Assembly (NCBI GenBank): GCA_947044365.1
Contig: OX345636.1
Location: 24,027,466-24,091,465 of the forward strand
DNA from: Petrosia ficiformis
Taxonomy: Eukaryota > Porifera > Demospongiae > Haplosclerida > Petrosiidae
DNA length: 64,000 bases
Reading direction: 5' to 3'
The position numbers were made by a program, and so were the translations under genes. Under the pieces are notes generated by a model that ran no database searches, had not been told where the DNA came from, and was given only the letters and a program-made list of their open reading frames with translations. This document shows positions 9,460 to 52,730 of this stretch, one piece after another. Numbering within the stretch: the stretch's first letter is position 1; each line of letters opens with the position of its first letter.

Positions 9460-10292
9460 GTGCAAGTTATTGTTGAGAAACAGTAGCATGTCCATGTTAC
9501 TAGGCTTGAGTCTGTTTCATCTCTCAGACACCAGTTGTCCAGCCTTTGAAAACAATCGTTCTGATGGAACAGACGAGCCTGGAAAGGATAGATACTTCTG
9601 TGCTAGTGTATGTAGCTTTGGAAATCGAACAGCATTATCTTTCCACCATACTAGTGGGTCTTTTGTGCGTTCTATGCATGGTTCCTTGAAGTACCTACGA
9701 ACTACTATGGTAGCATCTGTTTGAGCAGATCGATGTGAAGTTGATTCACTCACTCTCTGATCAAAGGAATCCCAGAGGCTGGGTGTGGCAGGTGTATTCC
9801 CAGTGGAAGTGCTTGGACCTGTAGCTTCCTGCCTTTGATCAAGGCTCGGCAAAGTTGCTACTTCATTTTTGATTCTTGTGACAGCATGTTCTGCTGAAGA
9901 GGTGGTTAAGAAGAGCACCTTTTTAAAGCGTGGGTCTAATAAGGTGGTTACAGCTGTTGTATATGCACCCTCTATAGAAGAAAAACGGCTAGACAACTGT
10001 GAGGCAAAGTGTAGCAGCTAAAGGGACATCTAAGTGGGACAGCATACTCTGTTGAAGCAATCTGATAAGTGGGGTGATCATTGGAGTTGACCCATACTTG
10101 TCACCTGATATATTTTCTGTTGCTTCTAGGAATGGTTTAAGGACTTCAAGTGAACAGGAAAGTAGTGATTTGTCTTCAGCAGTTAAACACAGCTGGTTGT
10201 AATAGCCTCAAACTGTTCAAACATCGCATAAGTGGAATTCCACCATGTTACAACATCTTGTTTCAGTTTATGTTCTGGAAGAGATAACTGTT
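9460..10292 (-). pseudogene. hAT (ZBED-type) transposase, C-terminal part
   Basis: Minus-strand fragments in three frames read KLKQDVVTWWNSTYAMFEQF, LTAEDKSLLSCSLEVLKPFL, VTTLLDPRFKKVLFL and, at the end, DPLVWWKDNAVRFPKLHTLA followed by SFPGSSVPSERLFSKAG. The last is the hAT dimerisation domain. Frameshifts and stops between the pieces show it is dead. The N-terminal part of the same transposase lies at 13522-14140 on the same strand; a separate element occupies the gap. Confidence 0.85.
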
Positions 10293-16200: not shown

Positions 16201-17179
16201 AAGATTACTGGAGCACAAACCCAACAAGTAGCATACCTTTCTTCAGATCTGTCTTTTCTAGAGATCGATTTTTTAAAATTTTTTGGATGCTACATGACAA
16301 AATTCAACCTTTCCTTGATCTTTTCTATACTTGACACAGAGAAGTAGCAGTAGATGAATCAGTAATAACTTTCAAGGGACGAGTCAGCTTTTGACAATAC
16401 CTCAAGGGAAAACCAAATCCTTGGGGGTTAAAGCTTATGTGCACAACTGCCTAGATGCACAACTTACGAATTTATTTTGGGAAACAGACTAGCCTAATAG
16501 ATGACACAAATGATCACACACTGTGAAAGTAGTGCTCACTTTAGTTGAGCACTTGAAAAATAAAGGTTATGACCTTTATGCAGACCGATTCTACACTAGC
16601 CCAGCACTAGCTGATAGGCCACAAAAATGTGGTCTTACTCTAACAGGAACTATTATGAGTAATTGGCGTGGATTACCAGAGCAGTTCAAGGGAAAAAATA
16701 AGATGGATATAGGCTCAACAGAATGTTACAGTTGTGGAGATATGATAGCTCTAGCTTGGAGATTGGTGGATAGCATCATGTCATTTCTTTTTACTTTAAG
16801 AGACCAACAGAACCCCCAAAAACAAGCCAATGTTATACGGCAATATAATAGATACTTGCTTGGGGTAGACAAGTTAGACCAGATGATGTGCTACTATAGC
16901 TTCATACATAAATCTGTGAAATGGTGGAGAAAGGTTTTTTTTTGGATCTTAGAGTTGACAGTTGTCAATTTCTACATCATTTGTCAACACACACGTAATG
17001 AAATCAAACAAAACAGTGTTCACCTTGCATTCAGACGAGAACTAATACATCATCTCATTGAACCGCTACTAACATCCAGACTTCAACCTCTGATTAGTTT
17101 GGAGTTGTACGAAAGTGTTGAACTGCTTCAAACTAGTATAGTAACTATATTAAATGTATGTACTCAGGCTTCAAACTAG
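16200..17179 (+). pseudogene. Second piggyBac/PGBD-type transposase, truncated
   Basis: Before 16523, a broken frame reads FFRSVFSRDRFFKIFWMLHD, then EVAVDESVITFKGRVSF and YLKGKPNPWGLKLMC. The open part, 16523-17179, has YDLYADRFYTSPALA, TGTIMSNWRGLP and LLGVDKLDQMMCYYSF. The three Asp positions of the piggyBac catalytic core (VDES, ADRF, GVDKLDQ) are present. Two stops lie in the first part. The sequence differs clearly from the copy at 5.9-8.1 kb, so it is another subfamily. Confidence 0.85.
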
Positions 17180-17515: not shown

Positions 17516-17579
17516 ACACGTACATGAACATATACTTTCGTCCTAGAAATTGTAGATGTCTATTATTAAACTCAAATTT

Positions 17580-18012
17580 ATACAGGTTAATGACATTTAT
17601 CAAATTATGAAACAATAATTATTAAACTACATGAGAAAAGAATTGGTGTCTTATATACAAATGACATTTATCAAATTATGAAACAATAATTATTAAACTA
17701 CATGAGAAAAGAATCGGTGTCTTATACAAATGACATTTATCAAATTATGAAACAATAATTATTAAACTACATGAGAAAAGAATCGGTGTCTTATACAAAT
17801 GACATTTATCAAATTATGAAACAATAATTATTAAACTACATGAGAAAAGAATTGGTGTCTTATATACAAATGACATTTATCAAAGTATGAAACAATAATT
17901 ATTAAACTACATGAGAAAAGAATCGGTGTCTTATATACAAATGACATTTATCAAATTATGAAACAATAATTATTAAACTACATGAGAAAAGAATCGGTGT
18001 CTTATATACAAA
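17580..18012. repeat. ~71-bp tandem array, six copies
   Basis: Six near-identical copies of a unit holding 'atgacatttatcaaattatg', then 'aaacaataattattaaacta' and 'catgagaaaagaat(c/t)ggtg'. Copies differ mainly by 'tata' length and by c/t in 'aatcgg/aattgg'. This is a typical minisatellite; nothing in it is coding. Confidence 0.95.
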
Positions 18013-18074
18013 TATCAAAGAATCAGTCAACAATCTCCCCTAAATGCAGTACAGTAAATAATATTCTCTTCTGA

Positions 18075-18652
18075 TCAAACAAAGTTGAAAGGTAACTGTG
18101 TGTGTTGTCCCCCAGGAGCAGCTACAACTTGAAAAGGAGGAGGAGGAGGTGCAATAGGATTTGTGCCTATTGCAGGCTGGCAATAGTGCGGGACATTACT
18201 ATATGGTGGAAATGACATCACAACTTGTCCCATACACAAAGGATGATGAGCTACCCGAGGTGGGTAAACAGACAGATTTTCCTCTTTTTTTTTTTTTGTA
18301 TTTCTCTTTCGAGTTGCCGTCTCTTTCTCCTCAATTGTTCATTTTCGTCATGGAACTTTCTTTTCAGTCTGTTCCATTCTTGTCTCCTTCTTTCTTCATT
18401 CCTTAAGTAGTTTACCCTCCTCTTCTCTTGGTTTTCACTTTTATTTTTCTCTTCCAGGTATTGTTGCTTATTTTTTTCTTCCCTTTTTCTATCTTCCCGG
18501 CATTTTGTTTCAAGTTCTTTCAGTTTCTGCTCTTCTTTTGACTTCCTTTCTTCCTCTTGCTTCAATTTCTGTTCTCTCAACTTCTCCTCTTCCTTCAATT
18601 TCTGCTCTTCTTTTTTCATCTTATCTTCCTCTTTGGTGTTACTACTTCCCAT
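18075..18652 (-). CDS. Two-exon charged coiled-coil protein with Pro-rich tail
   Basis: Exon 1 (18652-18255) starts MGSSNTKEEDKMKKEEQKLK and is almost entirely Lys/Glu/Arg/Gln heptad-like text, a long single helix or coiled coil. A 56-base intron (18254-18199, GT..AG) joins in phase to exon 2 (18198-18075): NVPHYCQPAIGTNPIAPPPP, then a short tail ending QLPFNFV and a stop. The predicted length is 173 residues. MGSSNT fits the N-myristoylation consensus (Gly2, Thr6), so membrane attachment is possible. No family is recognised. Reading frame and splice phase are intact, unlike most neighbours. The opposite strand gives T/C-rich artefact frames. Confidence 0.65.
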
Positions 18653-21864: not shown

Positions 21865-22099
21865 GTGGATTCTCTCAATGACCAAAAAGATTTTGACAAT
21901 GTTCGGAACGCAATGAAAGTACTTGGCTATACACCTCAAGAAATTGATACTGTTTGGAAACTTATAGCAGCTATACTTCACCTGGTATGTGAAATAATGT
22001 ATATTTTATAATGTTATTACAAGATAGAAACTGCTGACAAACATTTGTTCCTCTCTGAATATCTGTTCATAAATTTATCTACAACATGTAATTCCTTAT

Positions 22100-22365
22100 T
22101 CTGTTCTCTTGTATCTCTCTTCCTCTCTCTCTCCCTCCCTCCATCCCTCTCTCTTTGTCTCTCTCTCTCTCCCTCTCTCTCCTTCCCTCTCTCCTTCCCT
22201 CCTTCCATCCCTCCCTCTCTCTTTCCCTCCCTCCATCCCCCTCTCTCTCTGTCTCTCTATATCCCTCTCTCCCTTTCTCCTCCCCTCCCTCCTTCCCTCC
22301 CTCTCTCCCCCACCCCCTCTTTCTCTGTCTCTCCCTCCTCCCTCTCTCCTTTCCTCCCTTTCTCC
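22100..22365. repeat. Intron 3: (CT)n / CCCT pyrimidine tract
   Basis: About 260 bases of almost pure pyrimidine (ctct, ccct, tccc) run into the exon 4 acceptor. Long open frames of Ser/Leu/Pro here are artefacts of the repeat. Confidence 0.95.
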
Positions 22366-23285
22366 AGGGAAATGTACAATTTTCAGATGAAGAAGAAAAA
22401 GATCAAACTGACGGAGCAGCCCTACAATCTCCTGAACTGATGCAAACCATATCTAACCTTCTAGTAGTCAAATCAGAGACTTTAGAACAAGCACTGTGTT
22501 CCAGAGTTACAGCTAACAAGAGGGAAGTTGTGCAGAAGAAACATTCTGCTGATCAGGCATATTATGGTAGAAATGCATTCGCAAAGGTACATGTACAGGG
22601 TACTTCATAAATACATCATACATTGTAATAGTTTGTACATTGTATATATAAAGAATCCGAAGTACATGTATATATATATTATAGAGCATTAAATGTGTAT
22701 GTACACGACTACATGTACTGTACATGTGCTTGTACTGTACATTGTATAACATATCAGTTGTACATGTACATGTACTGTACATTGTATGAAGTATGCAAGA
22801 GTTGTATATGTACATGCATATATAGAGCATTTGAAGTGCATTTACTGTACTGTATTGTACGCTGTACACATGTATGAAGTATCATGTACATGTATATATA
22901 CAAATGTAGTATAGAGCATTTCAAGTGTATATGCATGTGACTCAATCTTTGAATACCTAAAAGATCAATGTAGTGAATGTATATTAACAATTGTCTGTCT
23001 ATCTGTCTCTCCCTCTCTCTTTATCTCTCCATCTCTCTCTCTTTTTGTATTTCCAGGCCATTTATGACAGACTATTCACCTGGATTGTACACTTCATAAA
23101 TGATAACCACAAATTCACTGAAGGGAGACAGTACAGTAATTGGAGTCTTGGATATATATGGATTTGAGATATTCGATAACAACTCATTTGAGCAGTTTTG
23201 TATAAATTATTGTAATGAGAAACTACAACAACTATTTATTGAGTTAGTGTTGAAACAGGAACAAGAAGAGTATGGGATTCAGGTC

Positions 23286-23862
23286 AGTCTCACACACATG
23301 TCCACCCACACACACACACACACAGCATACTCTGTCTTTTACTCCCTCCCTACCTCCATCTTCCCTCCTTCCCTCTCTCCCTCTCTCCCCCCTTTCTTTT
23401 TTATACTCTGTATTTTTCATGTACATGTAACTTGTCGTAACACTCAAAATCCAAGGTTTCATTTAGAAAATTTGTGCGAAACGTGAATTTGAAAGACTTT
23501 GAGGGGGTCGACATACAGGGTTGTTGTAGTATGCATATTGGCAAACAAATTCCAAGGGGAGGCAAAACTATAGCAAGTGGTGGGTAAATGCCCCACCCCT
23601 CCCTCTATGAGCGAAACCCTGAATACATATAATGCCATACATGTGTTCACGATCCAGATTTACGATGTTCTTTATTGAAGTACAATGTACTTGTACAGTG
23701 TACATGCATATGTGCAACTGTACATGTACTTGTGTGGTATACATGTACATGTATATAGCTATATGTACATGTATGTTCTATTTGCTGTACTGTAGTAACA
23801 GCTGACAGTATTACATGTACATGTACAATACTCATATTACCAGCTGGTTTCTTTAATTACAG
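23286..23862. repeat. Intron 5: (CA)n, CT tract, and a diverged insert
   Basis: A (ca)n run near 23307-23324 and a CT-rich tract precede a less repetitive block (about 23440-23625). That block contains 'tgggtaaatgccccacccct' and 'gagcgaaaccctgaa' and looks like a small inserted element. tacatgta islands follow. Confidence 0.5.
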
Positions 23863-23994
23863 ATTAAGTATTTCAATAACAAGATAATTTGTGATTTGGT
23901 TGAACAACAGCACAGTGGAGTTATAGCATTACTTGATGAAGCTTGCTTTCTTGTTGGAACTGTTACTGACAAAGTAATAAGTTTCCACTATTCT

Positions 23995-24445
23995 GTGTAT
24001 TTACATCCATCCATTCATCCGTCCACTCATCTATCAATCATATGTTCAATCCATCCATCCACCTATCCACTAACCTATCCATCCATCTATCCATTCATAC
24101 ATGTATGTTCAGTCCATCCATCTATCCTTCCACTCATCCATCCATTCATCTATCTACATGTACATCTATTTATCCACTCACCTATCCATCCATTCATCCA
24201 ATCCATTCATCCATTCATCCATCCATTCATCCATTCATCTATCCATCCATCCACCCATTCATTTATCCATCAACATGTACATCTATCTATCTACTCATCC
24301 ATCTATTGATCCATTCATCCATCTACATGTGCATCTATTTATCCACTCACCTATCCATCCATTCATCCAATCCATTCATCCATTCATCTATCCATCCATT
24401 CATTCATCCATTCATCCGTCCATTCATCCGTTTTTCTATCCATTC
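23995..24445. repeat. Intron 6: (ATCC/ATTC)n minisatellite
   Basis: About 450 bases of 'atccattcatcc'-type repeats fill the intron. A longer period beginning 'tacatgtacatctatttatc' recurs about every 140 bases. Frames rich in Ser/Ile/His/Pro are artefacts. Confidence 0.95.
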
Positions 24446-24694
24446 AGCATTTCCTTCATGCAATGGATGAGAAATTTAAAGGACATGATCACTACAGCAG
24501 TAGACAGGTATGGTTATTTGTGGAATCGAAATCTTCATGTACAATTTACATGTACATGTATATACATGTACTCATATACATGTATAATAATACTACTAAA
24601 TTTGCTCTTTTCCTTACAGTTGGACTTTTCTGAAAAAACTCTTCAGAGAGACGAACAGTTTAGAATACGACATTATGCAGGAGATGTAGTGTAA

Positions 24695-25060: not shown

Positions 25061-25135
25061 CAGGGATACACCATGCTGATGAGACCCAATAGGTCGAAAC
25101 AATCTGATCAGTCTGATTGTCCATGGTTTGCCCTG
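25061..25135 (+). ncRNA. Hammerhead ribozyme, type I (copy 1)
   Basis: The plus strand holds every element of a type I hammerhead. Stem I is CAGGG (25061-65) and CCAUG (71-75) against CAUGG (122-126) and CCCUG (131-135), with an internal loop AUACA/UUUG. The core CUGAUGA is at 76-82. Stem II is GACC/GGUC (83-86, 92-95) with loop CAAUA. GAAA is at 96-99. Stem III has six pairs (99-104 with 115-120) and a 10-base loop. The cleavage triplet GUC ends at 25121, so self-cleavage is predicted between 25121 and 25122. In animals such motifs occur in retrozymes and Penelope-like elements and cut transcripts to unit length. Activity is inferred, not shown. Confidence 0.9.
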
Positions 25136-27935: not shown

Positions 27936-29412
27936 TCACAGATTAGTAGTCTCTCTTGGTTTTTTACATATTGACAGCAGATGATTTATAGCACAACACA
28001 TAGATTTTTTTGAAAGTGCTCCATCACCACCCAAAGAAGTTGCTGTAATGTATGTACCATTCTGATTGATTTGTACTTCGATGTGTACTGCTCCTGTAAC
28101 TTTGTGGATATAAAGGCCATGCCCTTTAAGTGGCAATACGATTTGTTTACCTTTACATAACCTTCTCAGGAGTTTTGCTTGCATCGAGAACAATATTGCA
28201 GCCACCAACTGCCCAGCTTTAATGGGTATTATTGATCCACTTTTGTAAGATGTGTTGGGGGAAGGCTGATATGCATGTTCTACTCGAACACTTTCACCGC
28301 TTGTGTCAGATGACCATTCAGCTTCATCATCATCCCCCAGACTATGTGACACATTTATAGGTATCGATTTAAAAATAAAATCGGGTGAACCCTTGAATAA
28401 GAATCCATTGCTTGATATACCACTTGGTAACTTTCCTCCCAAGGTTGCATGTTTACCTCTATAATGGACATATAAATTTCCGTCAAAGTCATCAATTCCT
28501 TTACGTAAACCATAAAATAGACGTGTTGTCCACGTATCTTCGTCGTAGTCATTCGCCACCATATTTGTTGCACCTCCGGAAAAAAACCGTGAAAGTTCAC
28601 AAGAATTGGTATCTATATATTCATTTAATTCACTTAAGTCCATTCTAGCAGCAGATGCTCTATCTGATTCTACATGTTCAGCTATTATCTCATTATAGCA
28701 GAGCTTCAGCTTATCATTGCCATTGTAATATGGAAGTAAGTAGTCATGATTTTCATGTTGACACTTGGGTAGTGAAACTGTACGCTCACTTATACTTTTA
28801 GCACATCGTGCAATCATGCCAAATTTTACTTTGGAAAATGCCATGTAACTAGTGTGGTGGTACATATAAATTGGATTATCCTCAAATCGACAAATTTCGA
28901 AGTATCCTAGTCGAGGTGATGTCAAGATTCCCCTATCATATAATTGAGTGATATCGTTTTTAATTTTATCAAAATTTGTACGAAACAGTAGAGGTAGGGT
29001 GGGTTTTGTCCCACTTTTCAATTCAATTTTATCATTGTGAGAAATTGTTTCTGGAAGTTCGGTGAAATTATCCAATGGAGATTCTGAAATTATGAGTACA
29101 CTTCCAAAATATATAAATTTTAGCTGTTTTATCTGAAAAAAAGCAAGATAGGGTGGAATAAAATTATTGTTTTGTAAGAACCTAGTAGCTAGCTATAAAG
29201 ACAAGGCAGTGTCTACAGACAGGGGTACTAGAAAAACAAATAGAAACTTTTAATTAAAAGTGCCAATAAATATTGTACTATTTCCTAGGAGAAACCTATC
29301 TTTGACTAGTATTGTTGTAGCTATCAATTAACGTTTATCTATTACTTACAGGCTCTGTTTTTCTTCTCTTTGAGCGAGGTGGATCTTCTTGGGGTGAAAT
29401 TGTTTCCGACAT
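27936..29412 (-). CDS. Intact two-exon orphan gene, 419 residues
   Basis: Exon 1 (29412-29350) encodes MSETISPQEDPPRSKRRKTE plus P and ends at GTAAGT. RSKRRK is a likely nuclear localisation signal. Exon 2 (29132-27936) follows a strong polypyrimidine acceptor (gctttttttcag) and continues in phase 0 for 398 codons. There are no stops or frameshifts. Features: LPLLFRTNFDKIKNDITQLY, an acidic segment EDTWTTRLFYGLRKGIDDFD, KGSPDFIFKSIPINVSH, an acidic linker (GDDDEAEWSSDTSGE) and a C-terminal strand IHIEVQI... spelled VHIEVQINQNGTYITATSLG. An E...GxPD arrangement recalls PD-(D/E)XK nucleases but the final ExK is not evident. I recognise no family with confidence. Intactness amid decayed elements argues for recent selection. 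Confidence 0.7.
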
Positions 29413-29669
29413 CAATCTGAGAAAACATTGGGGGGGGAGAGAGATACTATGATACGCATGCATAAGAGGATCAGAAAACTGAAAAAGTGAGGATTTATAT
29501 AAGTAACTATAATAAACGCACAAGGAACTAACCAAAATGTTCAGAGAGACCGGTAATAATCTTTCTTGTAGTCAGATTTAGCTTCAAACTTTCAATTTCC
29601 AAATTTCCAAATTTCGCATGGTTAATTGGTTATTCCAAACGACGTACACCACTTTTATATCAACGGAGG

Positions 29670-29702
29670 TATGATCATGTGAGCACAGCTCACATGATCA
29701 TA
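29670..29702. repeat. Perfect 15-bp palindrome upstream of the orphan gene
   Basis: 'tatgatcatgtgagc' is followed by 'aca' and its exact reverse complement 'gctcacatgatcata'. It lies about 260 bases 5' of the orphan gene start. It may be a protein-binding site or a transposon footprint. Confidence 0.7.
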
Positions 29703-30019
29703 TCCATTATTAATTGATTAATTAATTAATAATAATAATAATTTATTTTTTGGATTAAATAATATAGACAATACTACAGCCTTATACCCATACATGGCAG
29801 GGTAGATTTAGACATTGAATCTTTATAATTGCAATTCTATGATAGCATATTGATAATTTGGTTGAAGAATATATATCAAGCCTATCAGGCACACCACATT
29901 GACATAAATTTGCAGGAGTTGCTAGGTGTGAGGGTTTAAATTAGTATTGAAATGATACTAATGATATTCACACAGTATCCATCAATCTTCATGCAATCAG
30001 ATGTGTTATAACTTTGTAA

Positions 30020-30107
30020 GGGCAACTGTGGACAATCTGAATTATAATTATACATACACTGATCAGATTGTTTCGACCTATTGGGTCTCATCAGCACAGT
30101 GTATCCC
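30020..30107 (-). ncRNA. Hammerhead ribozyme, type I (copy 2)
   Basis: Read on the minus strand. Stem I is GGG (30107-105), internal loop AUAC, then ACUGUG (100-95), pairing with CACAGU (30030-25) and CCC (22-20). CUGAUGA is at 94-88. Stem II is GACC/GGUC with loop CAAUA. GAAA is at 74-71. Stem III has nine pairs, ACAAUCUGA (71-63) with UCAGAUUGU (40-32), around a 22-base loop. The triplet GUC ends at 30031, so cleavage is predicted between 30031 and 30030. The core equals copy 1, while stem I (ACUGUG/CACAGU against CCAUG/CAUGG) and stem III length differ yet still pair. Activity is inferred. Confidence 0.9.
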
Positions 30108-30115
30108 AAATTCAC

Positions 30116-30142
30116 AATACATTGTGCAGAATGATGCACAAT
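30116..30142. repeat. Hairpin next to ribozyme copy 2
   Basis: 'acattgtgc' and 'gcacaatgt' pair perfectly around an 8-base loop, just 5' of the ribozyme on the minus strand. It could be part of the same mobile RNA or a chance hairpin. Confidence 0.5.
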
Positions 30143-30199
30143 GTATGTTATATAATAATTATTATGAAAGGTTTCTATGTAGTACTATGTCTAGTACCT

Positions 30200-31440
30200 C
30201 CAGAGGTACTGGTAATAGATACAGCTTTCAGATTGGACTGAAAAACTGAAATACTTACTCTATGTTTCAGATGAGTCAGAAGAGATATAAATTTACCATT
30301 TCTAGTACAGTCAGCACCTCCAGAATCAAAGTAGAATGTGCTATAGTAAATGCAGGTAGACAACATACATACATGCATGCATGTGTGACAGTTATTTTCA
30401 TTATATGCGACTGTCTACACAAAAACCAGGCTTTGGTGACAAAATTTCAAAATTGATTTTTTGCTTTGCATTTTGACAAATGGCATGATGTGGCATGCTC
30501 TGGTAGTTGATCTGAGGATTCCCATAACATTTCTCAAGTATTATTGTATTCAACTGGATGGTGATTACAAAGGATATCAAAAGATTTGCAATACTGTATC
30601 TGATTACATCCTAAAGTCCTAACTATAACTAAATCTTAGGTTTCTTGTTTTCCTGTTCCCTTAATTTTCCACCATTACATATAATTCTTTTCATACTAAA
30701 CAGTTGTCTTATTAAGCAGAGCGCGTAGGCGGAGGGTTATAGTAATCGGTTTGTGTGTGTGTGTGTGTGTGTCTGTCTGTGTGTTACCACGTAATAATTC
30801 TCATAATATATAGATCATGTTAGTTCATTACAAATGTCTTGTTGCCTTGACAACAGTGATGCAATAGTACTTTTATTACATTTTTGTGGCTGTACCAGAT
30901 AGGTTATGGGCAACCTATTATCTCGCGAGCTACCTCTAGACAGGGAGATATCCATCACATATAAATTATAATTAATTAAATTATTATGTGGTTACAGGAA
31001 TGTACAAAAGTTTATCACACTATATTATGTAATTTGACTGTAAGTAATACAGTTATTATACTAGTTCAAAGCAGTATAGCTGATGGAGAATCATTCTTAG
31101 TCATCTTCCATGTGTTTTTATATTTATCAGAAATAATCTTAGCCAGTCTAGCCACAAAAAAACTTTCTCAACCAACTTTAAACTTTATATAAACAACAAA
31201 TTCAAATTTAAGCTTGTTACTTTCTCTCTTGCATCTCATTTATTTAATTGTTGCAATTGCAACCTATCCTTAAGCTACAGCGGCGAGGCCATGCACCAAA
31301 GGTGCTTCATTGCAAAGAGGAGTCATTAAGAGACAGCCAGTCACATACTTCATTAGACAAAAGAAGATGGATCTAGCCAACCCTTTTTGATAGCTTCTAG
31401 TGCATGTACATGGTATGTCATACTCATACCCATACTACAT
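30200..31440. other. Intergenic; dispersed repeats, no gene supported
   Basis: It contains the 'gcgtaggcggagggt' repeat with (tg)n at 30722-30785. A possible exon, MSQKRYKFTISSTV.., lies at 30272-30358 between an AG and a GT but has no partner exons. A hairpin 'gataggtt..aacctatt' lies near 30898. Nothing else was recognised. Confidence 0.4.
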
Positions 31441-31467
31441 AAATGTATTGTCATAGAGACTCATACC

Positions 31468-31631
31468 CAAGGGTGTGGAAATAGTGAGCTAATTGCCGGA
31501 CATCCTGGCTTGTTTTCACTACTCTTGTCCTGCTCCCCATATACTTTGTATACAGTTCAGTTTTAATTTCCCGGACATTCACTAGATTTATCGGACAATG
31601 TCCTGCATGACTGGCTGTTTCCACACCTCTG
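31468..31631. mobile_element. 164-bp hAT-type MITE with 8-bp target duplication
   Basis: The right end read inward starts cagaggtgtggaaac; the left end is caagggtgtggaaat, an inverted pair with a hAT-like start. The octamer ctcatacc flanks it on both sides (31460-31467 and 31632-31639). It sits in a local 'ctcatacccatactacataa' repeat, so the duplication could partly reflect that repeat. The body has no coding content. Confidence 0.7.
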
Positions 31632-34915: not shown

Positions 34916-35477
34916 GTGGGCGGATGCTACTCCAATCAGTTTCTAGTCTTGCCAGCTTCTTGCTGCATACAATCTAGTTCAATTCTGTATCTTTTGGAAG
35001 CCACACCCACCCGGGGGTATAATTATTGGGGCTAAAAGTTTATTTTCAGAAACAAAGCTAAACACACCCTTCGGGTGGTGGAGGGGGCGGTAGGCGGGAA
35101 ACCCTGGCAGGGTAACTGTAGTTGCTCTCTGAGAAAGATCGGAGTTTGATAGTGTCTAGAAAGGTAGATTTTATGATTTCAGTGAAAAGCTACAGAATTC
35201 AGCTTTCTTGTAAGTATAAAAGTAAAATGAATTTTCAGAAAACGGCTCTATTTGTTTTCTCAAAATACATTGTACTTGGTGCACGCCATGATTGGTGGGC
35301 GTGGCTTTCGTGGTTTTGTACTTATGGCGATTGCAAAAATGGCGATTTTAACCATATTTCTTCAATTACAGGACAATATAAAGCTGATCAGAAGATATGA
35401 AGGCTGCTATTAGACCCGGTTAGAGTCATATTATATAATATTCTATTTTGAAAGTGATTGGAGTCGCATCCGCCCAC
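34916..35477 (+). mobile_element. 562-bp MITE, copy 1, in an integrase-gene intron
   Basis: The left end is gtgggcggatgctactccaa and the right end (35450-35477) is its inverse, ending 'gagtcgcatccgcccac'. Internal text such as 'gagaaagatcggagtttgat' and 'aaatgaattttcagaaaacg' recurs in inverse orientation at 41747-42310. An open frame of 92 codons inside has no start context or domain. Non-autonomous. Confidence 0.85.
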
Positions 35478-37041
35478 TCCGCCTATTATTATTATTCACT
35501 CTTACTGAATGATTTTAATAGGAATACTGTCATGAAGGCCATGCAAACTCTGGATCCTGAAGGTGTGGCTATTAGAAAGAAAAAAAGCCTGAGGCGAAGA
35601 GTTTATTTTAATAAAGTATACACCTTGGTGCATAATATATTAAGTATCATCTTTTAGTTAGTTGTTTTTATAGGGCCCAAACTTCGTATGGCATATAGAC
35701 GGCTATGATAAGCTTGCAATTCTTGGCTGTATAGATGGGTAACAGAAATTAGTGGCAATGTATCCTTCAAAGCTTATGCAATTTCTTAATATAGATTTTC
35801 CCGTAAACTGCTTTGGTTGAAGCTTACACCAAGCAATCATAATCCCATGATTATTTCACGCTTTTACCTGGAATGCATTGAGACTGTTGGAGGTTTGCAT
35901 GACCATTAAGTTATTGACAAAATTTAACATGACTATATTACTGATGTAGGAATTCCTAAATTTCTAAGATCAGATTATGGCACAGAAAATTCCATTGTGG
36001 CTTCTCTTCACATTGCATTTCATCTGAGTAATTCTTCCAACTTGAAAGAGAAATCTTACATTTATGGTCCCTCGAAAAGAAATGTGGTATGATTTTAATA
36101 AAAATAATATCATTATGGCACTTAATTAATATTGTTATAGCGAATTGAGGGTTGGTGGTCTCAGTTGCGTCGCCATAAAACATCTTGGTGGATAGATTTA
36201 TTTAAGGTTTGTTTAAATTACTATAGTTCAAAGTATATAAAAAGAAAAATATATCATTTCATTGCATGCATGCTTCTGTCATATAGGGCATGAAGGAAAG
36301 TGGCCAGTTCAATGGGTCTCAGTCACATAAGTAAGACTGAAAGATCTAATTGTGTTAATTTTAATTGGGAATAAACAATGACAGGTATGCTGTTGCATTT
36401 TGTATGGCCCATCTGGTAGAGAAAGAACTGAATGGATTTAAAGATAGCTGGAACAATCATAGGATAAGAGCTAATGACAAAACTGCTCTTCCTTCTAGAG
36501 TACCCAATGATCTGTACGAGATGCCAAGTGTTTATGGCAAGTAAATTCCTAGATGTATATTTAGTACATTATTACCATTATTATTAGGTGTTGATGATCA
36601 TATTCAACCTGTCAGTACCAACCTTTGGATATTGGGAATGGAAAATGAAAGTTGTCCGGTACCACAGTTTTACCCTTTATCCTATAAAGTTCGGGCAAAT
36701 CAACTTTTAAAGGATAAACTTCATATGAAACGTGAACAAATAACAATTGAGAATATGGAAAATGTATACAATATTTTGGTGTCCAATATTTAACAATGAT
36801 TATTGTCAATCAGAAATCTGTTTTAACACTGTGCCCAATTCATTGCCACAAGGCAAGAACCTATAACAATAATTATAGTATAATGCTGATAATTATAACT
36901 ATGATTAGTACTGTAAAACCAACCTCTCCAGATTTGGCCTTTACTGTATCTTGAAAGACATTTGTTGACTACTGTTCTGAAGATTTCACAGAGTGTTTCA
37001 TCAACTGCTACATTCTCTCCCACAAGCATTACTATTACGGG

Positions 37042-38565
37042 AATTTTTTATTTCGATACCATAATCGATCAGCTGCTAGAACTGCTAAAACAAGTTTTAT
37101 AAGAGGTACAGAAGTTGATAATGCGTTGACTAAATCTAGAAAGAAGGAGCTCTCAAAGCAGTATGGTGTAACTGGTGTGTCTGTACTTTATAGGTGGTAT
37201 TTTCTTTGTAAGTTTGACCCAGTAAATGACCTTGTGATTGATGTTATGCATGTGATTTTGAATCTTGTGAGAACCGAGTTGGAACTTCTACTTGGCCGAG
37301 GTAATCAGTTAGATGAAAGTAGAGTTGTTAATAGATCAAAGCTTGCTGATGCTTTAAGATACGTGCCATGGATATCAGAGTTGAAAGATGGTAGACTTCC
37401 AACAATTATAGGATATTCTGACCCTGTCTTCAAACACCATCTAGGACATTGGAAGACAGAAGAATTTATGAAATTTATAAAAGTTGCACCATATGTCTTG
37501 CACACCATAGCCCCAAAAGATCGGTATTATTCGTTTTATTTACTTCACAGAATATGTCAGTTGTTACTTTCAATGGTAATGCGTGTAGAGGGATGGCGGA
37601 AAGAAGACACTGATTTGCTGAATAAGTTGCTTTGGCTGCATGCAATTCAGTTTGAGCAGTGTTATGGAGTTGCATGTTGTAGTGAGAACCTCGAATATTC
37701 ATTGCATCTCCCTTCTGATATATATCGTCATTCATCACCAGATAACTATTGGTGTTTTGTATATGAACGACTTGTTAGATTCTACAAATTGCAAACTACA
37801 AGTCAAAAAACTTTGTGCAAAACATTTGCTGACCGTGCAAATCAACTGAGATTTGTTACATCATTTTTAGAATTACAAAGTTCAAAAGAAACTACTGATC
37901 ATAATACTGCCGGGTTCACATCAAATATTAGTGATGGTTTCGTGATTCTTTCAGAATCTACATGTTCATCAGCTCTTGCTCTAAAGGAACACTTGTCAAC
38001 AATAAATATGTCTGTATCTGTGAAAGAAATGTATAGCTATGATATTTTAGTTGGTACGCCTATATTTAAAAAGCTTCACCCAAGACAACTTGCTGATATA
38101 CAGTATTTTATGGATAAGGAAGTAAATCCTGAACAGCTTCCATCCTCTGGTCAGTACTTTACAAAACTTCAAAAGACAAATGATTGTGATATGGGTGTAC
38201 TGTTTCGAATTGGTGAAACGATAATATTAAGAGATCTGCATGAAGAAGGAAAGGAATGGGTAATGAAAATTACCCACTTTATTCTGTATGGACCAGTTCT
38301 AGGAAAGTACTATATTTTTGTTGACGACCATTATTTTGTTGCTAAGACAAAGACACGTGGACGAGAAATTGATTTGGATTCTTGGACAAGGAAAGAAAAA
38401 ATGATTCCGAAGTACTTCAGCCGTCTCTGCATTCAACCAACTTTATTAATAGATCGTAAAGTAATGTTATATCCCAGCCCTAACAACCATAATAACCCTA
38501 ATTACTATCTTGTAATAGATCATGAAGACGTGGACTTTTCACCAATTGATTTGCCCAATCCATAG
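37042..38565 (+). CDS. CACTA-type transposase-like protein, C-terminal half
   Basis: One long open frame (start in the list frame at 37126, but readable from about 37050: LFRYHNRSAARTAKTSF) ends at 38565. It contains FDPVNDLVIDVMHVILNLV, HLPSDIYRHSSPDNYWCFVY and ERLVRFYKL; a GETIILRDLHEEGKEWVMKI region is near the end. VIDVMH matches the D-x-MH motif of En/Spm transposase_21 proteins. LHLPSDIYRHSSPDNYWCF is like the adjacent DUF4218-type segment. The N-terminal catalytic part is absent; that part exists as a relic of another copy at 61.5-63.2 kb. The frame is intact for about 480 codons, so this piece is younger than most. Confidence 0.65.
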   Translation, partial: NFLFRYHNRSAARTAKTSFIRGTEVDNALTKSRKKELSKQYGVTGVSVLYRWYFLCKFDPVNDLVIDVMHVILNLVRTELELLLGRGNQLDESRVVNRSKLADALRYVPWISELKDGRLPTIIGYSDPVFKHHLGHWKTEEFMKFIKVAPYVLHTIAPKDRYYSFYLLHRICQLLLSMVMRVEGWRKEDTDLLNKLLWLHAIQFEQCYGVACCSENLEYSLHLPSDIYRHSSPDNYWCFVYERLVRFYKLQTTSQKTLCKTFADRANQLRFVTSFLELQSSKETTDHNTAGFTSNISDGFVILSESTCSSALALKEHLSTINMSVSVKEMYSYDILVGTPIFKKLHPRQLADIQYFMDKEVNPEQLPSSGQYFTKLQKTNDCDMGVLFRIGETIILRDLHEEGKEWVMKITHFILYGPVLGKYYIFVDDHYFVAKTKTRGREIDLDSWTRKEKMIPKYFSRLCIQPTLLIDRKVMLYPSPNNHNNPNYYLVIDHEDVDFSPIDLPNP

Positions 38566-38690
38566 ATGTTTTATATTTCTGATCTTAATTATTGTAATAA
38601 GAATTATTAATATGCAATTGATCCAAAACATTGATATTTTAATATTGTTCATAATATATACTGGATTAATAATGAATAATACTTTGCTTG

Positions 38691-40639
38691 CTAATAATAC
38701 ACTTTATTATAGTAAACTTTTTCAACAACATCTCCTGTTTCCTTAAAATACGAAACACCACAGTGATCATATGGCTCCTTTCTCATATCTGCTAAAGGAA
38801 CATTAACAATCCTAATTTGAACAAAAAAGAACTTGAGATAATTAAATATTCATGTTAATTATTATTAGTCTCCAAACTTTGCAACTATATACTGTGACAA
38901 ATATGTGACCCAGGATGAGAAAAGGTGGCTATCTTACTATTTTGAAAATTCTCCATTCTCTTGGCTATCTGATGGTGTATTCGCTTTTTCCATCCGACAT
39001 TGCAATCGCGAGATATCGAGCCAGACGCTAAGTTGTTTGGTTCCACATAATTCCCCAAAAAATGCAATTTAAATGTGATTATTATTAAATTCCGTATATT
39101 TCCGTAAACGAAGTAAGTACTGTGAACAGGAAGATGGAGACAGTTTCTACTCGGAGTTTTGTTGAAGATCGAGCGATTTAACCCTTATTTACGAGGTAAA
39201 AAGGACTGAAACATGACAGAGAGACCCATTATAAATGTGAAAATCCAGCAAACAGGTGAGACATGAGTTTTATTAGTATCATTAAATTCATTATCATTCT
39301 TATGAACAACATTTGCATTTATACATATACTGTGCCTTAGTGAAGTGTATGAGCATGCTACTACACTACTACTTCTGTTCTTCATAGAGTCACATCCATT
39401 CAACTGCATCATTATGACCTGTACAAGAACAATGTCAATTTGCAGCTTATTTATATCTCTAGAGAATGAATTCACCCTCAAAATTCAAGTCTTCATCCTG
39501 CTCTTCATTGTCTATTGATTATATATATTATATTCATTTGTTATTTATAAGTACATGTGTATGCTATGAATACATTATAACAATTACTAATTACCTTACT
39601 TTGGGTCATCTTCATTCCAAAAATAATCAGTAATGAAAGAAGTGAGTGATTCTATGTCCAATGGGGTCAGTGAGCTTTGAAAAAAGCTATTTTAATTGCA
39701 TGCAATATCAGAAGAATTCCTTGAAGCCATCAGACAAATACGTTACTATGCTTGTTGCTAGGGGGCGAGGCCAGCGGTCAGAGAATTTCCGTGTTTCGTT
39801 TAGTGTTACATCTCCGTTAATTTTTTAATGGCGTTATAAACATTTCTGACCGACTCTGAACAAACACTCGTTCTGGAAAAACTACGTGGATCTGGACTTT
39901 GAAACTGCTGGTAGAGATAGCCAAGATATTTGTCCTCATGAAACTACAATAAACACGATTTCGCCACTTGGCGTGTTTTTTGCATTATTGAGCCCATACA
40001 AAAATATTAAATTTAAAAAGATAGCCACCTTTTCATAGAGCGCGTCACATATATATGTATGATACTTCGCGGTGATACCAAGTGAATTGTTTAACAGAGA
40101 ATACACGTTTGAAAGAATCTATTGCTCTTTGATAATGATTTTCATACTAAAAGGTAGGAAGAGTGTAATTTATTGCATTGATAAATTTGTATAAACTTAC
40201 AGTGAACTGATGACTATCTATTGGAATGCAGGGATACTTCTTGAATCCAACTTCTTGAAATACTTCGTCATAGTTAATTGGTATTGGATCCTGTTCCATT
40301 ATATTTTTCACAAATATTTCAGCAGTTTGCCTAGCTCTTGTTAAGTCAGAGGAGTAGATAAATAATGGTTTCTGTAACTGTTGCTGTAATCTATGTCCAG
40401 TTGTCTGTGCTTGTTTCTGTCCTATTTCAGTAAGTTCTTGCGTTTCATCATCATTTGTTTTGATATAGTCTCCATGTCTAATAAAGTATATGTGTCTAGT
40501 GAATGTTGTAGTATTCTGAACAGGTTTAGAACTGCAGCTGTCCTAATAACCAAATTAACTAACCTCATTAGTAAAATTAAATATACATACTAACTTCTTT
40601 ATCATCTCTGTCCTTCCAGCATGGTACAATCTGATCCAT
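38691..40639 (-). pseudogene. Histidine phosphatase (PGAM family), split by a transposon
   Basis: Exon 1 (40639-40595, MDQIVPCWKDRDDKE), exon 2 (40542-40201) and exon 3 (from 40146) join in phase 0. Exon 2 reads IYFIRHGDYIK, then LTEIGQKQAQTTGHRL and PLFIYSSDLTRARQTAEIF. RHG is the catalytic phosphohistidine motif, and the rest is the usual PGAM5-like strand-helix pattern. Exon 3 reads HYQRAIDSFKRVFSVKQFTW, then YHREVSYI, and runs into an inverted-repeat element at 40052. Beyond it on the same strand a terminal exon (38811-38691) reads IVNVPLADMRKEPYDHCGVS, then YFKETGDVVEKVYYNK and stop. The second catalytic His segment is missing or disrupted at the insertion. Assigning the last exon to this gene is inference. 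Confidence 0.7.
38901..40052. mobile_element. 1.15-kb 'atatgtgac' inverted-repeat element B
   Basis: The left end is atatgtgacccaggatgaga followed by 'aaaggtggctatctt'; the right end read inward is atatgtgacgcgctctatga, then 'aaaggtggctatctt'. Inside are 'tttccgtaaacgaagtaagt', a small ATG exon-like METVSTRSFVEDRAI and 'aatttccgtgttt', features shared with element A at 44.5 kb. It has no transposase and sits inside the phosphatase gene. Confidence 0.8.
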
Positions 40640-40644
40640 TTTCT

Positions 40645-41490
40645 TTTCCCACATTCAGTCACATGGCTATTAATTATAGAACGAAAATGGGAGTGAACAG
40701 TGAGGTGTTGATTTCTAATCAAAATAGTTTTTCAGTCTGACTCTGCCTCCTGTTTATAAGTAATTGAGTATGCAATCATATTCAGAAATATCTATGGTTA
40801 TATGGAAGGAACAGTAGACATAACATACCTCAGTAATTGATTATTACACTAACAAATTTAGTTAGCTACCATATAGTGATGAGTTAACACTTCCAAAATA
40901 CATGTACTTAATTTCAAATCCCTTAAAAACAATTAGCTTAAAATAACAGTGCTACAAAATTACATATAGATTAGTGGTCTAATCAATTAAAAAAGAGTGC
41001 AGTACTTCTCAACAATCATTAATAAAAATGGAGTAGTTAATTGCTAAGAAGTAGTTATACGCTTTTTTTTTTACACATGATACATATTCTCTCACCTTTT
41101 AATAGAACTGCCTTAATGTACGTAATAAGAAATTCATCACAATAGATCTTGTAGCATGAAGACTGTATAGAAAAATATATATTGATATAACATACTAGTG
41201 TACTTATATGTATAATATTTTTATATAATTATATTAGATTTATACAGGGTTCGCCTACTCCGCGTTGCCTAATTATAAATTGAAATTCCGGTAATGCCTA
41301 CTACGTTAAAATTGTTTTTACAGTGTAACCACAATTATTATAATTGATGTTACAATAATTATTACTTTGAAGTCCTTGAAATGTACTTCCATGTGTTTGA
41401 AATATATATACAATGTACCTGAACAAGCTATGGTTAGTATATAAAGGACACTAAAATAATATAATATCTAGCATTTGTCATCATTTTATA
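40645..41490. other. Intergenic; no gene seen
   Basis: This AT-rich stretch between the divergent phosphatase start and the FLYWCH fragment probably holds the phosphatase promoter. No specific element was recognised. 'gttcgcctactccgcgttgc' at 41250-41270 resembles the dispersed 'gcgtaggcgga' repeat in inverse. Confidence 0.35.
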
Positions 41491-41496
41491 TTAAGT

Positions 41497-41746
41497 ATGG
41501 AGTATATTACTACTAAGAGAGGAGGAAGAGCTTTAATCTATCAGGGACATAGATATGTAATAAATAGAAGAGGTTGAGATGGAAGAATATTTTGGAGGTG
41601 TGGAGTAAGTAGGCTTTGTAGTGGAGCAGTAACAACCATGTTAAATGAAATTCTGTCACAACGAGACATTCATAATCATCCCCCAGATGTTGCTGAAATA
41701 GAAATATTTTCTTTTACTACCATTTTACTTAAGGTGGTACTAGGGA
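41497..41746 (+). pseudogene. FLYWCH zinc-finger fragment
   Basis: From ATG: MEYITTKRGGRALIYQGHRY, VINRRG, a stop, then DGRIFWRCGVSRLCSGAVTT and HNHPPDVAEIE. This is the FLYWCH pattern (F/L-Y..Y, W-R-C, C, H-x-H). FLYWCH fingers often precede Mutator-like (MULE) transposases. A MULE-like relic lies 0.9 kb downstream on the same strand, separated by the MITE at 41747. One in-frame stop is present. Confidence 0.75.
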
Positions 41747-42310
41747 GTGGGCGGATGCGACTCCAATCAGTTTCAAAATAGAATATTATATAATATGACT
41801 CTAACCTGGTGTAATGGCAACCTTCATATCTTCTAATCACCTTTATAGGGTCCTGGAAGTGATAAAACATATATAAAATGTCCATTTTTGTAATCGCAAT
41901 AAGTACAAAACGGAGAAAGCCACACCCACCAATCATGGCATGCACCAAGTACAATGCATTTAGAGAAAACAAATAGAGCCGTTTTCTGGAAATTCATTTT
42001 ACTTTTATAGTTACAAGAGGCTGAAGAAAGCTGAATTCTGTAGCTTTTCACTGAAACCATAAAATCTACCTTTCTAGGCACTATCAAACTCCGATCTTTC
42101 TCAGAGACCAACTACAGTTACCCGCCATTGTTTAACACCCACCGCCCCCTCCACCACCCGTGGGGCGTGTTTAGGTTTGTTTCTGAAAATAAACTATCAG
42201 TCAAAACATTTAGGCCCAATAATTATCCCCCCGGGTGGGTGTGGCTTCCAAAAAATACAGAATGGAACCAGATTGTATGCAGCAAGAAGCTTGCAAGACT
42301 AGAAACTGAT
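41747..42310 (-). mobile_element. ~560-bp MITE, copy 2, inverse of 34916-35477
   Basis: It begins gtgggcggatgcgactccaa and carries the whole body of copy 1 in reverse order, up to 'aagactagaaactgat'; the last ~18 bases of the other terminal repeat are missing. It lies between the FLYWCH fragment and the MULE-like relic. Confidence 0.85.
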
Positions 42311-47716: not shown

Positions 47717-48325
47717 AACTAAATTTATCAAAATAAAGGTTCTTGAACTATAACTGGAACTATAAACAACAAGAAAAAAGTTCCAGAACTAGAACTGGAA
47801 CTTTTAAAATAAATAGAACTAGAACAACACTATGTGCTACTATTATTAAGTACTGTAACATGTGACACTAATAAAGATGTGGAAGTGTTTGTTTGTATTG
47901 GAAATAAGATATATATATATATATATATATATATCTTATTTCCAATACAAACAAACACATATATATATATATCTTATGTGCTACTATTATTAAGTACTGT
48001 AACATGTGACACTAATAAAGATGTGGAAGTGTTTGTTTGTATTGGAAATAAGATATATATATATATAAGATATATATATATATGTGTTTGTTTGTATTGG
48101 AAATAAGATATATATATATATATATATATATATCTTATTTCCAATACAAACAAACACTTCCACATCTTTATTAGTGTCACATGTTACAGTACTTAATAAT
48201 AGTAGCACATAGTGTTGTTCTAGTTCTATTTATTTTAAAAGTTCCAGTTCTAGTTCTGGAACTTTTTTCTTGTTGTTTATAGTTCCAGTTATAGTTCCAG
48301 AACCTTTATTTTGATAAATTTAGTT
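47717..48325. repeat. 600-bp palindrome with (TA)n centre
   Basis: The left arm runs 'aaatttatcaaaataaaggt ... gtgctactattattaagtac ... tgtttgtattggaaataaga'. The right arm is its near-exact reverse complement, ending 'cctttattttgataaattta'. Each outer arm is roughly 220 bases. The centre holds two further copies of 'gtttgtattggaaataagat' in both senses, separated by (ta)n. Such a structure extrudes as a cruciform and is prone to deletion in cloning; frames within it are artefacts. Confidence 0.9.
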
Positions 48326-49559: not shown

Positions 49560-51105
49560 TTTGAGGTCAAGTTAACCGCCAGTATCCATAAGTCACGTGA
49601 GCAATCAAAATAATTTAATGGAGATCTACCACACCCAATTAGTTATGTATGCTACACATGGGGACTATTGGGGAGAATATGTGTGAGTTTTGATCTGTAA
49701 TTGCATATAATTATATATATTAATTATTGTAGAGTATATAATATTACATTAATACACAAAATTCATTCTCTTTTTGAAAGTGCATGTATTGTGTAGCAAA
49801 GGAATCACTGTGTGATTCTGATCTTTGAATAACCTAATGTGTTTCGGATCATCTAATTTTCCACTCTAACACTAAATTGTGACCAGAAATACAGGATGAA
49901 TAAGAAGCTTAACTTGTTTGAAATAGTAAACTGAGTCTTTATCATAAACAACCACTTTTGTTAATCATAATCATTAGAGGGGTGACGCTTTTCACTCACA
50001 CAAGTATAGTCCAGCACTGGCTATTTCAACAATCTTATAATCTACTCCTGTTTCTTTTTGTTGGGGCAATTTCCGTATACGAGTGGAAATATTTGTATGA
50101 TTGTTGCACCATTAGCTTTGGCAGGGATCAAAGTTCTACACATCATGCTAATCATAGTATGTCTGAATGAATGTTGCTTTGAAAAATATCTATTATTTAG
50201 TGTGCATTATATTGGTCAATTAATTGTTTATGAATACATTTATTGCTTTGTCAAATGACAGCTGCATGCATGTAGACTGATAATAATTATTATAATTATA
50301 ATTATGTTATTATAATTATTTCATTCACTGTATTACCTCTGTAGTTTTACTTCCACAGGAAGATAATAGATGTTGTTGATTACATCTTTTGTTCTGGCAT
50401 TTTATATGTTTATAATTAATTATTACCAATTGGTAATATAATTATATATATATTGTGTTCTTTTCCTGTTAACAGATAAATCTGAACTGTGCGTATTCTG
50501 TGTCTAGACTATAAGCTTAACTTTTAATTACTTCAGCTTGGCTTAATGTAGTATGAGAAAGTATTTTAAATAACACACAGTGTATAAAGAACACACTCTG
50601 ACTTGTCCAGTGGCTCCGAACTGAAGTGTATATTACACACCTTTTGCAGAGGTGTGCTTAACATTAATTTTACTGTGCCTCACACACTTCAGTTTTTACA
50701 GTGACATGTTACTAACAGAAACGGTAATTGTGACAATAAACTTCTGAAGCTTGCTAGTTATAATTATGAATAATATATAAAGAATAATAAAAAAACATTT
50801 AATAATAATTATTATGAATATATGTGCTTGAAATCAATTATGTTTGAGAACTGAGCATGAAAGTAATGCCATATGGTATTTATTATAGTGTAGTTATACG
50901 AAGTGGTGTATAAGCTAAGTGCATAAACAGTTGTGATACACTACAGTGTATATTTTAGTAATACTACTCATCAGCATAACATGGTTATCACTAATATATA
51001 CTGTATTTGCTATAACAGAGTATAACATCCTTTTTGCACAGTGATATACTACTGATAACATAAATAATAATTAGTCAGTCAAAATTTAGATATGCATGTC
51101 ATGAA
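49560..51105. other. AT-rich gene-free stretch
   Basis: Short 'ataattattataattata' runs near 50280-50320 and 50410-50450. No coding or RNA feature was supported. Confidence 0.4.
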
Positions 51106-51109
51106 ATGA

Positions 51110-51660
51110 TATAGTAAATGTACAGGATTTTTCATGTGGAAGGCTGTGCAGTAAATGTGTTGGTCATGTCATATGGAATGATGTAGCGAATGTGTAGGAT
51201 ATTTCATGTGGAAGGCTGTGCAGTAAATGTGTTGGTCATGTCATATGGAATGATGTAGCGAATGTGTAGGATATTTCATGTGGAAGGCTGTGCAGAAAAT
51301 TTGTTGGCCATGTCATATGGAATGATGCAGCAAATGTGCAGGATATTTCATGTGGAAGGCTATGCAGGAAATTCGTTGGTCATGTCATATGGAATGATAT
51401 AGCAAATGTACAGGGATATTTCATGTGGAAGGCTATGCAGGAAATTCGTTGGTCATGTCATATGGAATGATGTAGTAAATGTGTAAGATATTTCATGTGT
51501 AAGGCTGTGCAGGAAATGTGTTGGCCATGTCATATGGAATGATGTAGTAAATGTGCCGTATATTTCATGTGTAAGCCTGTGCAGGAAATTTGTTTGCCAT
51601 GTCATATGGAATGATGTAGTAAATGTGAAGAACATCACAAATGACAGGGATACAGGACAT
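51110..51660. repeat. ~61-bp tandem array, eight to nine copies
   Basis: Units contain 'ggatatttcatgtggaaggc', then 'tgtgcag.aaatgtgttggtc' and 'atgtcatatggaatgatgta'. Copies differ at a few positions. Reverse-strand frames with repeating TTSFHMTW text are artefacts. In inverse sense it shares 'atttcctgca' and 'atttca' motifs with the block at 46.0-46.6 kb. Confidence 0.95.
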
Positions 51661-52730
51661 CTATTCCAAAATTTCATGTATTTCCACCACGAAATGTAAA
51701 GGAAATGTGACACCTAAATGTCCTGGACATGTTGTGTAAATCACGTATTCAGGAAATTCCAATTTTCCCCCTGTGAATAGCTCTTCTAAACTGCAAATAG
51801 CAGATTCTGGGGTTAGCTTCAAACAACCAAAAAAATCCTTGTCACCACCATTTACAGGACTTACGAACAAAACCATAGGACACTAAGCTGATCAACAAGG
51901 TCAACACCATTCATTGTTTGATTGTAAATGTCTATCACTTCAGGTTTACAAACAAGATCTGATGAATGTTTTTTTTTTACTAATAGTGATCATTCTATAG
52001 AACTTGCCTCAGTTGACTTTCAAGTCTCCATGCTGTCACTAAAATATTCCTAATTCGATATGCTTTGATTTCACTTGATTTGAGCTTCAATGCTTTATCT
52101 CTAATGGGATCAAGTAAGTCTATACGATTTTTTATTTTTTTTAAGCAGTATATGCTGTTTGATATTTCTCTAATATTAGTGGGACACTAGAGTAATACTG
52201 ATCTCTTACTATATGGTAACCTTTATTTAGGTAATGACGAGCGAGATGTAAAACTATTTGTGCTATTTTCATTTCCTAAGGTGTCAGCTCCAGTATATAT
52301 ATATATCACAAAATACATGACAAGGTAATAACATGGGAGCCTATGTTATTGTATAATAAATAGAAATTATTTGGAAAACTTACGAGGGTCCCGTCCCGAC
52401 GGTGCTCGTTGTATTCTAGTTTTTTCTTTAATTATTAAATATTTGATATACTGTGACAGTCGCTTTTAGGGAGAATTTAGCAGTTGCTTAGTTTGCCTAA
52501 TTTCTACAAATAACGAGAAAGTACCATGTATTGTAATTCAACAAAAAAATAATGGCAATGATTATTACAGAAAATGGATAAATCACTAATTGTCTGAAGT
52601 AGAGTCAATACCTAGGATGTGGTGAAATTATTATTAGGAACCTACACAAAAACATGATATATAATGAAAAAAGAAATTTCAAGCTTTCATTTCATACCTT
52701 GCATGGAAATTGAGCAATATCCGCAATTTC
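51661..52730. other. No gene seen; 20-mer repeat at 52383
   Basis: It contains the second copy of cgagggtcccgtcccgacgg (52383-52402) and short simple repeats. No coding region could be supported. Confidence 0.4.

Follow-up and report, generated by a model that had tools for sequence, protein, structure and literature searches.

Animal non-LTR retrozymes carry type I hammerhead ribozymes and, as described in PMC7229834, are present in many copies and low in GC. For Penelope-like elements and Terminons, PMC6431247 places hammerheads near the element ends together with accessory genes, and mentions ragged truncation in Terminons. The window, which is the whole analysed stretch of 64,000 nucleotides from Petrosia ficiformis (C1:24027466-24091465 in a 191 Mb assembly of 29 contigs), contains two hammerhead copies that belong to a class with likeness to both systems. 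In contrast to the retrozymes, the copies are not arranged in tandem repeats of 150-450 bp and their pairs lie on opposite strands; in contrast to the Penelope-like elements, the pairs face inward and stem III is not minimal. No direct tandem array of units of about 150-450 bp with hammerheads was detected in 29000-31500, and among the first 100 listed places there are no same-strand neighbours within 2 kb. Due to the opposite strands, an RNA running through a pair contains one active copy, and excision of a unit circle as in retrozymes is unavailable. The window pair is not a tandem retrozyme. The frames compared with Pfam, 17 distinct ones from related loci and 11 from the window, revealed neither a reverse transcriptase nor a GIY-YIG match; beside L046 a further frame looks reverse transcriptase-like by eye.

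The literature searched (hammerheads combined with sponges, terminal inverted repeats and Penelope, mostly at title level) yielded no report of inward hammerhead pairs and none on hammerhead ribozymes in Porifera. Judged from these literature listings, inward-facing, non-tandem hammerhead pairs around genes are apparently unreported. To our knowledge, few roles are established for animal hammerheads that are not part of retroelements.

Copy 2 (30020..30107, minus strand, CUGUG class) is a canonical type I hammerhead fold, which extends from GGG to CCC and reads GGG-AUAC-ACUGUG-CUGAUGA-GACC-CAAUA-GGUC-GAA-ACAAUCUGA-(22 nt)-UCAGAUUGU-C^CACAGU-UG-CCC from window position 30107 to 30020. Its anatomy is as originally predicted: the core, stem II and loop are those of copy 1, both stem I blocks (ACUGUG/CACAGU and GGG/CCC) are present on the minus strand, and stem III comprises nine pairs with a 22-base loop. 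The predicted self-cleavage bond after C17 (30030..30031, minus strand) was also correctly placed at 30031/30030. The hammerhead is both the minimum-energy structure and the centroid (-25.8 kcal/mol; z -2.59; 3 of 200 shuffles equal it), and we infer that the RNA of copy 2 would cut itself. The copy is located upstream of, and in sense with, a putative gene at 29412-27936. A bare core is weak evidence, because the window has 7 matches to the loose motif CTGATGA-N(1-30)-GAAA where 1.6 are expected; the hammerhead case is carried by the complete fold and by 222 exact 24-mers against 0 reversed controls.

Copy 1 (25063..25133, plus strand, CCAUG class, predicted cut 25121/25122) is the inward-facing partner, recognised by its sequence, relaxed Rfam scoring, arm complementarity and fold. 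It is antisense to the putative gene and lies past its 3' end. Here the hammerhead is the minimum-energy fold only (frequency 0.06, z -1.50, 17 of 200 shuffles equal it), and the centroid is without stems II and III. The original prediction regarded the two copies as independent sequences. This view was abandoned, since they are homologous inverted arms (over 50 nt, 25063-25112 is 96% complementary to 30058-30107). The accompanying claim that changed bases remain paired holds for stem I, with two compensated pairs, and not for stem III, where the difference is one-sided (U.U in copy 1, U-A in copy 2).

No match in the Rfam scan of the window reached a gathering score, that of the type I hammerhead included. 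At a relaxed threshold, Hammerhead_1 (RF00163, gathering 34) gave 33.4 bits for copy 1, which is 0.6 bit short, and 20.0 bits for copy 2, and the RAGATH-1 hammerhead (RF03152, gathering 56.3) gave 33.1 bits for copy 2 and 31.7 bits for the other copy. A genome search produced 24 matches at E up to 1 and none above the cut-off (73 of 18802 candidates scored). The likeness to RF00163 concerns the core, the stem II loop CAAUA, which is close to CAAAUA in the model, stem I, which is open and interrupted by an internal loop (AUAC / UG or UUG), and the predicted cut after C17; besides their scores, the copies differ from it in a stem III of up to 9 pairs and of variable loop length. The weak match of both window copies to RAGATH-1 is offset by the score and by the hairpin just upstream, which is not conserved here: it is strong only in the subclass of the window (z -6.4), and as 3 of 16 representatives beat 95% of shuffles, a conserved extra hairpin was rejected. 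The CUGAUGA...GAAA core with A15.1-U16.1 is present, with A-U in 46 of 46 copies, although the core itself was the search key and most copies were chosen by an exact core. Three helices with stem I open are maintained by pairing across the copies, and the cleavage triplet conforms to NUH, with C in 44, A in 1 and U in 1 of the 46. The 5' internal loop of stem I is conserved although unpaired (AUAC 39, AUGC 4, CUAC 3).

The exact 24-base core occurs at least 222 times (97 + 125) in the assembly, and at least 266 times when up to three mismatches are allowed; either search found 0 matches to the reversed pattern, which led us to reject a chance origin of the conserved block. Among the 222 exact cores the stem I classes CACUGUG and CACCAUG account for 121 and 94, respectively. 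The exact core is absent from the viral contigs and prokaryote genome contigs searched, a collection that may lack entries close to this genome. Copy positions refer to the listed places, which are complete for part of the genome. Among these, CCAUG-class copies form dense clusters at C6:5.47-6.35 Mb (25 of 26 on the minus strand) and C10:4.35-5.86 Mb (15 of 17 on the plus strand); listed CUGUG copies stop on C3, and any CUGUG partners of both clusters would thus fall outside the listing. No convincing gene was seen by eye in 10 kb around one C6 CCAUG copy. The complement of CCAUG copies contains a splice-acceptor-like TTTTCAG/GG, seen by eye in several classes and absent in C10 and L011.

From 71 loci a sample of 46 distinct copies was obtained after identical copies were collapsed and L029 (a fragment) and L068 (no cleavage side) were dropped. 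With the outer stem placed and with sterically impossible stem III pairs (very short loops) excluded, 786 of 817 helix cells are paired (96.2%). Changes on both sides were found in five pairs, all of stem I and its outer block. Of 1000 shuffles, which ignore relatedness, 0 match the paired fraction, 0 the number of double-changed cells and 37 the five double-changed pairs; for the 21 distinct signatures the corresponding numbers are 0, 0 and 35. The compensated states of inner stem I are CUGUG/CACAG and CCAUG/CAUGG, and those of the outer stem GGG/CCC, GAG/CUC (L005, L013, L024), CGG/CCG (L011) and GGA/UCC (L039). In an alignment of 32 copies without the outer stem 98.5% of the cells pair, and two pairs of stem I are double-changed. 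For this alignment, 0 of 500 shuffles attain the paired share or the covariation score, while 435 attain two double-changed pairs and all 500 the number of further pair types. Stem II is invariant in the sample because the search fixed it. All six pairs of stem I and the first six of stem III are formed in 41 of the 46 copies. The covariation proposed for stems I and III across genomic copies is thus found in stem I with its outer block and not in stem III, which shows wobbles, no double change, and a seventh pair that fails in 7 of 45 copies. The proposal that the RNA fold and not the letters alone has been selected is upheld on the 46 copies, and the argument originally given for it applies to stem I only. 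A selected fold is well supported. The stem I of the copy at L067 combines a 5' arm of CCAUG type with a 3' arm of CACAG type, which causes two mismatches, and the stem II loop is one base longer; this copy is decayed or recombinant.

In 16 class representatives the mean identity of the ribozyme is 0.83 compared to 0.56 after shuffling. The 50 nt upstream retain some likeness (0.68 versus 0.60 shuffled), and the 50 nt downstream are at shuffle level (0.60 versus 0.59). A better test of selection is offered by the outer module that adjoins copy 2 (30108..30461, minus strand), since copies were otherwise picked by the core. This module is common to related loci, and homology to the L016 copy stops at 30461. 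Its part 30118-30330 gave 40 genome matches (40 of 86 candidates scored). An exact core lies beside it in 33 of the 35 loci that could be decided from the listed cores (five of the 40 could not), in comparison to an expected share of 0.54-0.68 calculated from the 1.6-2.6% divergence of the nearer outer flank. The outer flank differs by 1.6-6.4% from its consensus and the class of copies seems fairly young, for which reason the test is moderate at the lowest divergence (P 0.0002).

The two copies of the window face inward as a pair, with an open reading frame and its likely promoter between them. Among 137 listed copies on C1 and C2, 35 of 40 neighbouring pairs within 16 kb face inward, and in the first 100 listed places the same holds for 20 of 21 neighbours no more than 10 kb apart; the 16 kb limit was set after the spacing had been seen, and shared ancestry inflates both counts, so that the 35 are not independent events. 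Inward pairs on C1 and C2 are 0.6-15.7 kb apart (median 5.3 kb, listed copies), and of the 5 exceptions three are located between the units of a tandem array on C2. That array, at C2:5364565-5422416, comprises four inward pairs with a period of ~17.5 kb. By the exact-core criterion, 67 of the 137 listed copies are without inward partner. L016 contains the window pair in inverted orientation, with 98% identity over 5 kb, and the inward arms of L012 extend over 617 bp at 95%. In all 11 mixed-class pairs tabulated by eye (L009, L013, L014, L016, L017, L019-L022, L026 and the window) the CUGUG copy is on the 5' side of the enclosed frame. An enclosed gene necessarily has one arm in sense and one in antisense in any inward pair, and this adds no evidence.

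Within the window pair, a TATA-like box recognised by motif match (29652..29659, minus strand) lies downstream of copy 2, 361 bp inside the ribozyme. It is followed by a putative first coding exon (MSETISPQEDPPRSKRRKTEP) at 29350..29412, then GTAAGT, and a putative second exon at 27936..29132, both on the minus strand. The latter belongs to the open frame 27939-29192; it resembles three proteins (P0001-P0003) and has no Pfam or NCBIfam match. The predicted structure of the window protein has a mean pLDDT of 32.5 and a pTM of 0.28. Promoter-like words (CCAAT-type, the CATGATCAT word and TATA-GTG) follow 12 of 33 CUGUG and 0 of 20 CCAUG copies within 900 bp each, which leaves 21 CUGUG copies without such words; in 10 CUGUG copies a TATA word is found 178-713 bp past the ribozyme.

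The enclosed frames differ among the examined pairs. P-loop NTPases of two related kinds are enclosed at L018/L027 and at L019 and have weak P-loop kinase matches in the PDB. Homology between the NTPase alignments A4 and A5 is indicated by hhalign (99.6%, E 1.8e-24), which found nothing between A6 and A7 or A2 and A7. The Walker A motif and a MPLW..(E/D)E..(E/K)C...(K/I)WGG stretch of these NTPases are reminiscent of Crinkler/RHS-type effector NTPases, although neither Pfam nor NCBIfam assigns them to a family of that kind. No convincing family match was obtained for the enclosed frames of the window, L016, L017 and L020, of L014, L022 and L026, and of L021, L009, L011 and L013. In some enclosed frames E-x-K-like stretches, noticed by eye, suggest nucleases. 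Outside the L018 pair, L051:799-1479 (plus strand) has a Death-domain-like frame (E 0.0015, below the cut-off of Pfam). To the left of the window pair, myosin head gene pieces (22092..24691, plus strand) point toward copy 1 and are apparently broken off before it. PF00063 matches 22092-22607 and 23857-24306, and the frame ending at 24691 has no Pfam match and is myosin by eye. Myosin and the Death-domain-like frame suggest an animal genome. Since myosin pieces are also found beside the L016 copy, the window pair was duplicated together with the broken neighbour gene.

We tentatively propose, as the mechanism that we favour, that such a pair may cut RNA entering from either side and so would shield the gene, guarding it on both sides against antisense RNA and read-through. 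A transcript entering the unit from either side would pass a ribozyme in active orientation before the gene; after the cotranscriptional cut, the inward-running part would begin with an uncapped 5'-OH end, and the intruding RNA would be destroyed or the polymerase released. The gene's own mRNA would start inside the pair at the TATA-like box and meet the far ribozyme only in antisense, and would thus remain uncut. Such a guard is supported by fold and covariation, core conservation, inward orientation, the promoter words inside the pair and the inward-pointing myosin pieces; it is weakened by the unpaired listed copies, the CUGUG copies without promoter words and shared ancestry. A wider idea is doubtful, namely that the pairs are a natural two-sided ribozyme insulator of a diversifying family of NTPase-like and possibly nuclease-like genes, in which RNA read in from outside, whether sense or antisense, would be destroyed and the gene's own message would escape. 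Given more than 200 copies, often inward-facing around genes and not tandem, a role in gene insulation becomes testable; should it fail, a clean case of a ribozyme module carried by gene duplication would still be at hand.

A possible competing account is that a mobile ribozyme-ended module (outer block plus hammerhead), derived from an old retroelement, became trapped on either side of an ancestral gene and multiplied together with that gene through tandem and segmental duplications, selected as mobile element and of no use to the genes. Most classical type I animal hammerheads are retroelement parts according to PMC7229834, about half of the listed copies are unpaired, the C2 array has its period of ~17.5 kb, and the outer edge of the module is ragged by eye, abutting a PHD/OTU frame in L034 and the reverse transcriptase-like frame (by eye) in L046; however, the core is retained while flanks drift to shuffle level, and the frames scanned include no autonomous partner. 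We weigh hitchhiking and guard about equally, with the guard slightly ahead: orientation and promoter position fit the guard, whereas the unpaired half and the ragged outer ends fit hitchhiking. It is unlikely that the copies are terminal inverted repeats of a gene-carrying DNA transposon with the hammerhead inside them. The long arms of L012, common ends with differing interiors and copies on several contigs would agree with this, but no fixed terminus was seen, several copies have homology that reaches ~1 kb beyond the ribozyme and stops at different places, and the one transposase found between two arms (piggyBac-type, L017) is in one locus only. Still less probable is a ribozyme that trims the 5' leader of mRNAs starting further upstream, like the messages of ribozyme-led retrotransposons; the 5' position of the CUGUG copy in all tabulated mixed-class pairs is in line with it, yet promoter-like words, where recognised, lie downstream of the ribozyme and the opposite arm is left unexplained. 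We give hardly any credit to a block conserved as DNA or coding sequence with an incidental hammerhead fold: short antisense-strand frames do cross some copies, but between core and cleavage site the length ranges from 13 to 40 nt, which breaks the frame and led us to reject a coding origin of the block, and stem I bases change together.

Several further features were noted in these loci. At L034:1059-2099 (minus strand) a frame with a PHD finger and a weak OTU match runs directly into the hammerhead module. The window contains piggyBac-type (DDE_Tnp_1_7) and hAT-dimerisation transposase frames at 7207-8127 and 9520-10017, and 16514-17176 is piggyBac-like by eye. A possible DNA transposon lies at 34935-42310, where ~6.3 kb are surrounded by inverted arms (107, 100 and 275 nt long, 89-97% complementary) and include a frame of 536 aa (36955-38562) without Pfam match. 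An inverted repeat at 47717-48325, with 261-nt arms that are 100% complementary and 87 nt apart, constitutes a long perfect hairpin, and tandem repeats of ~72 and ~70 bp are located at 51053-51720 and 17518-18077.
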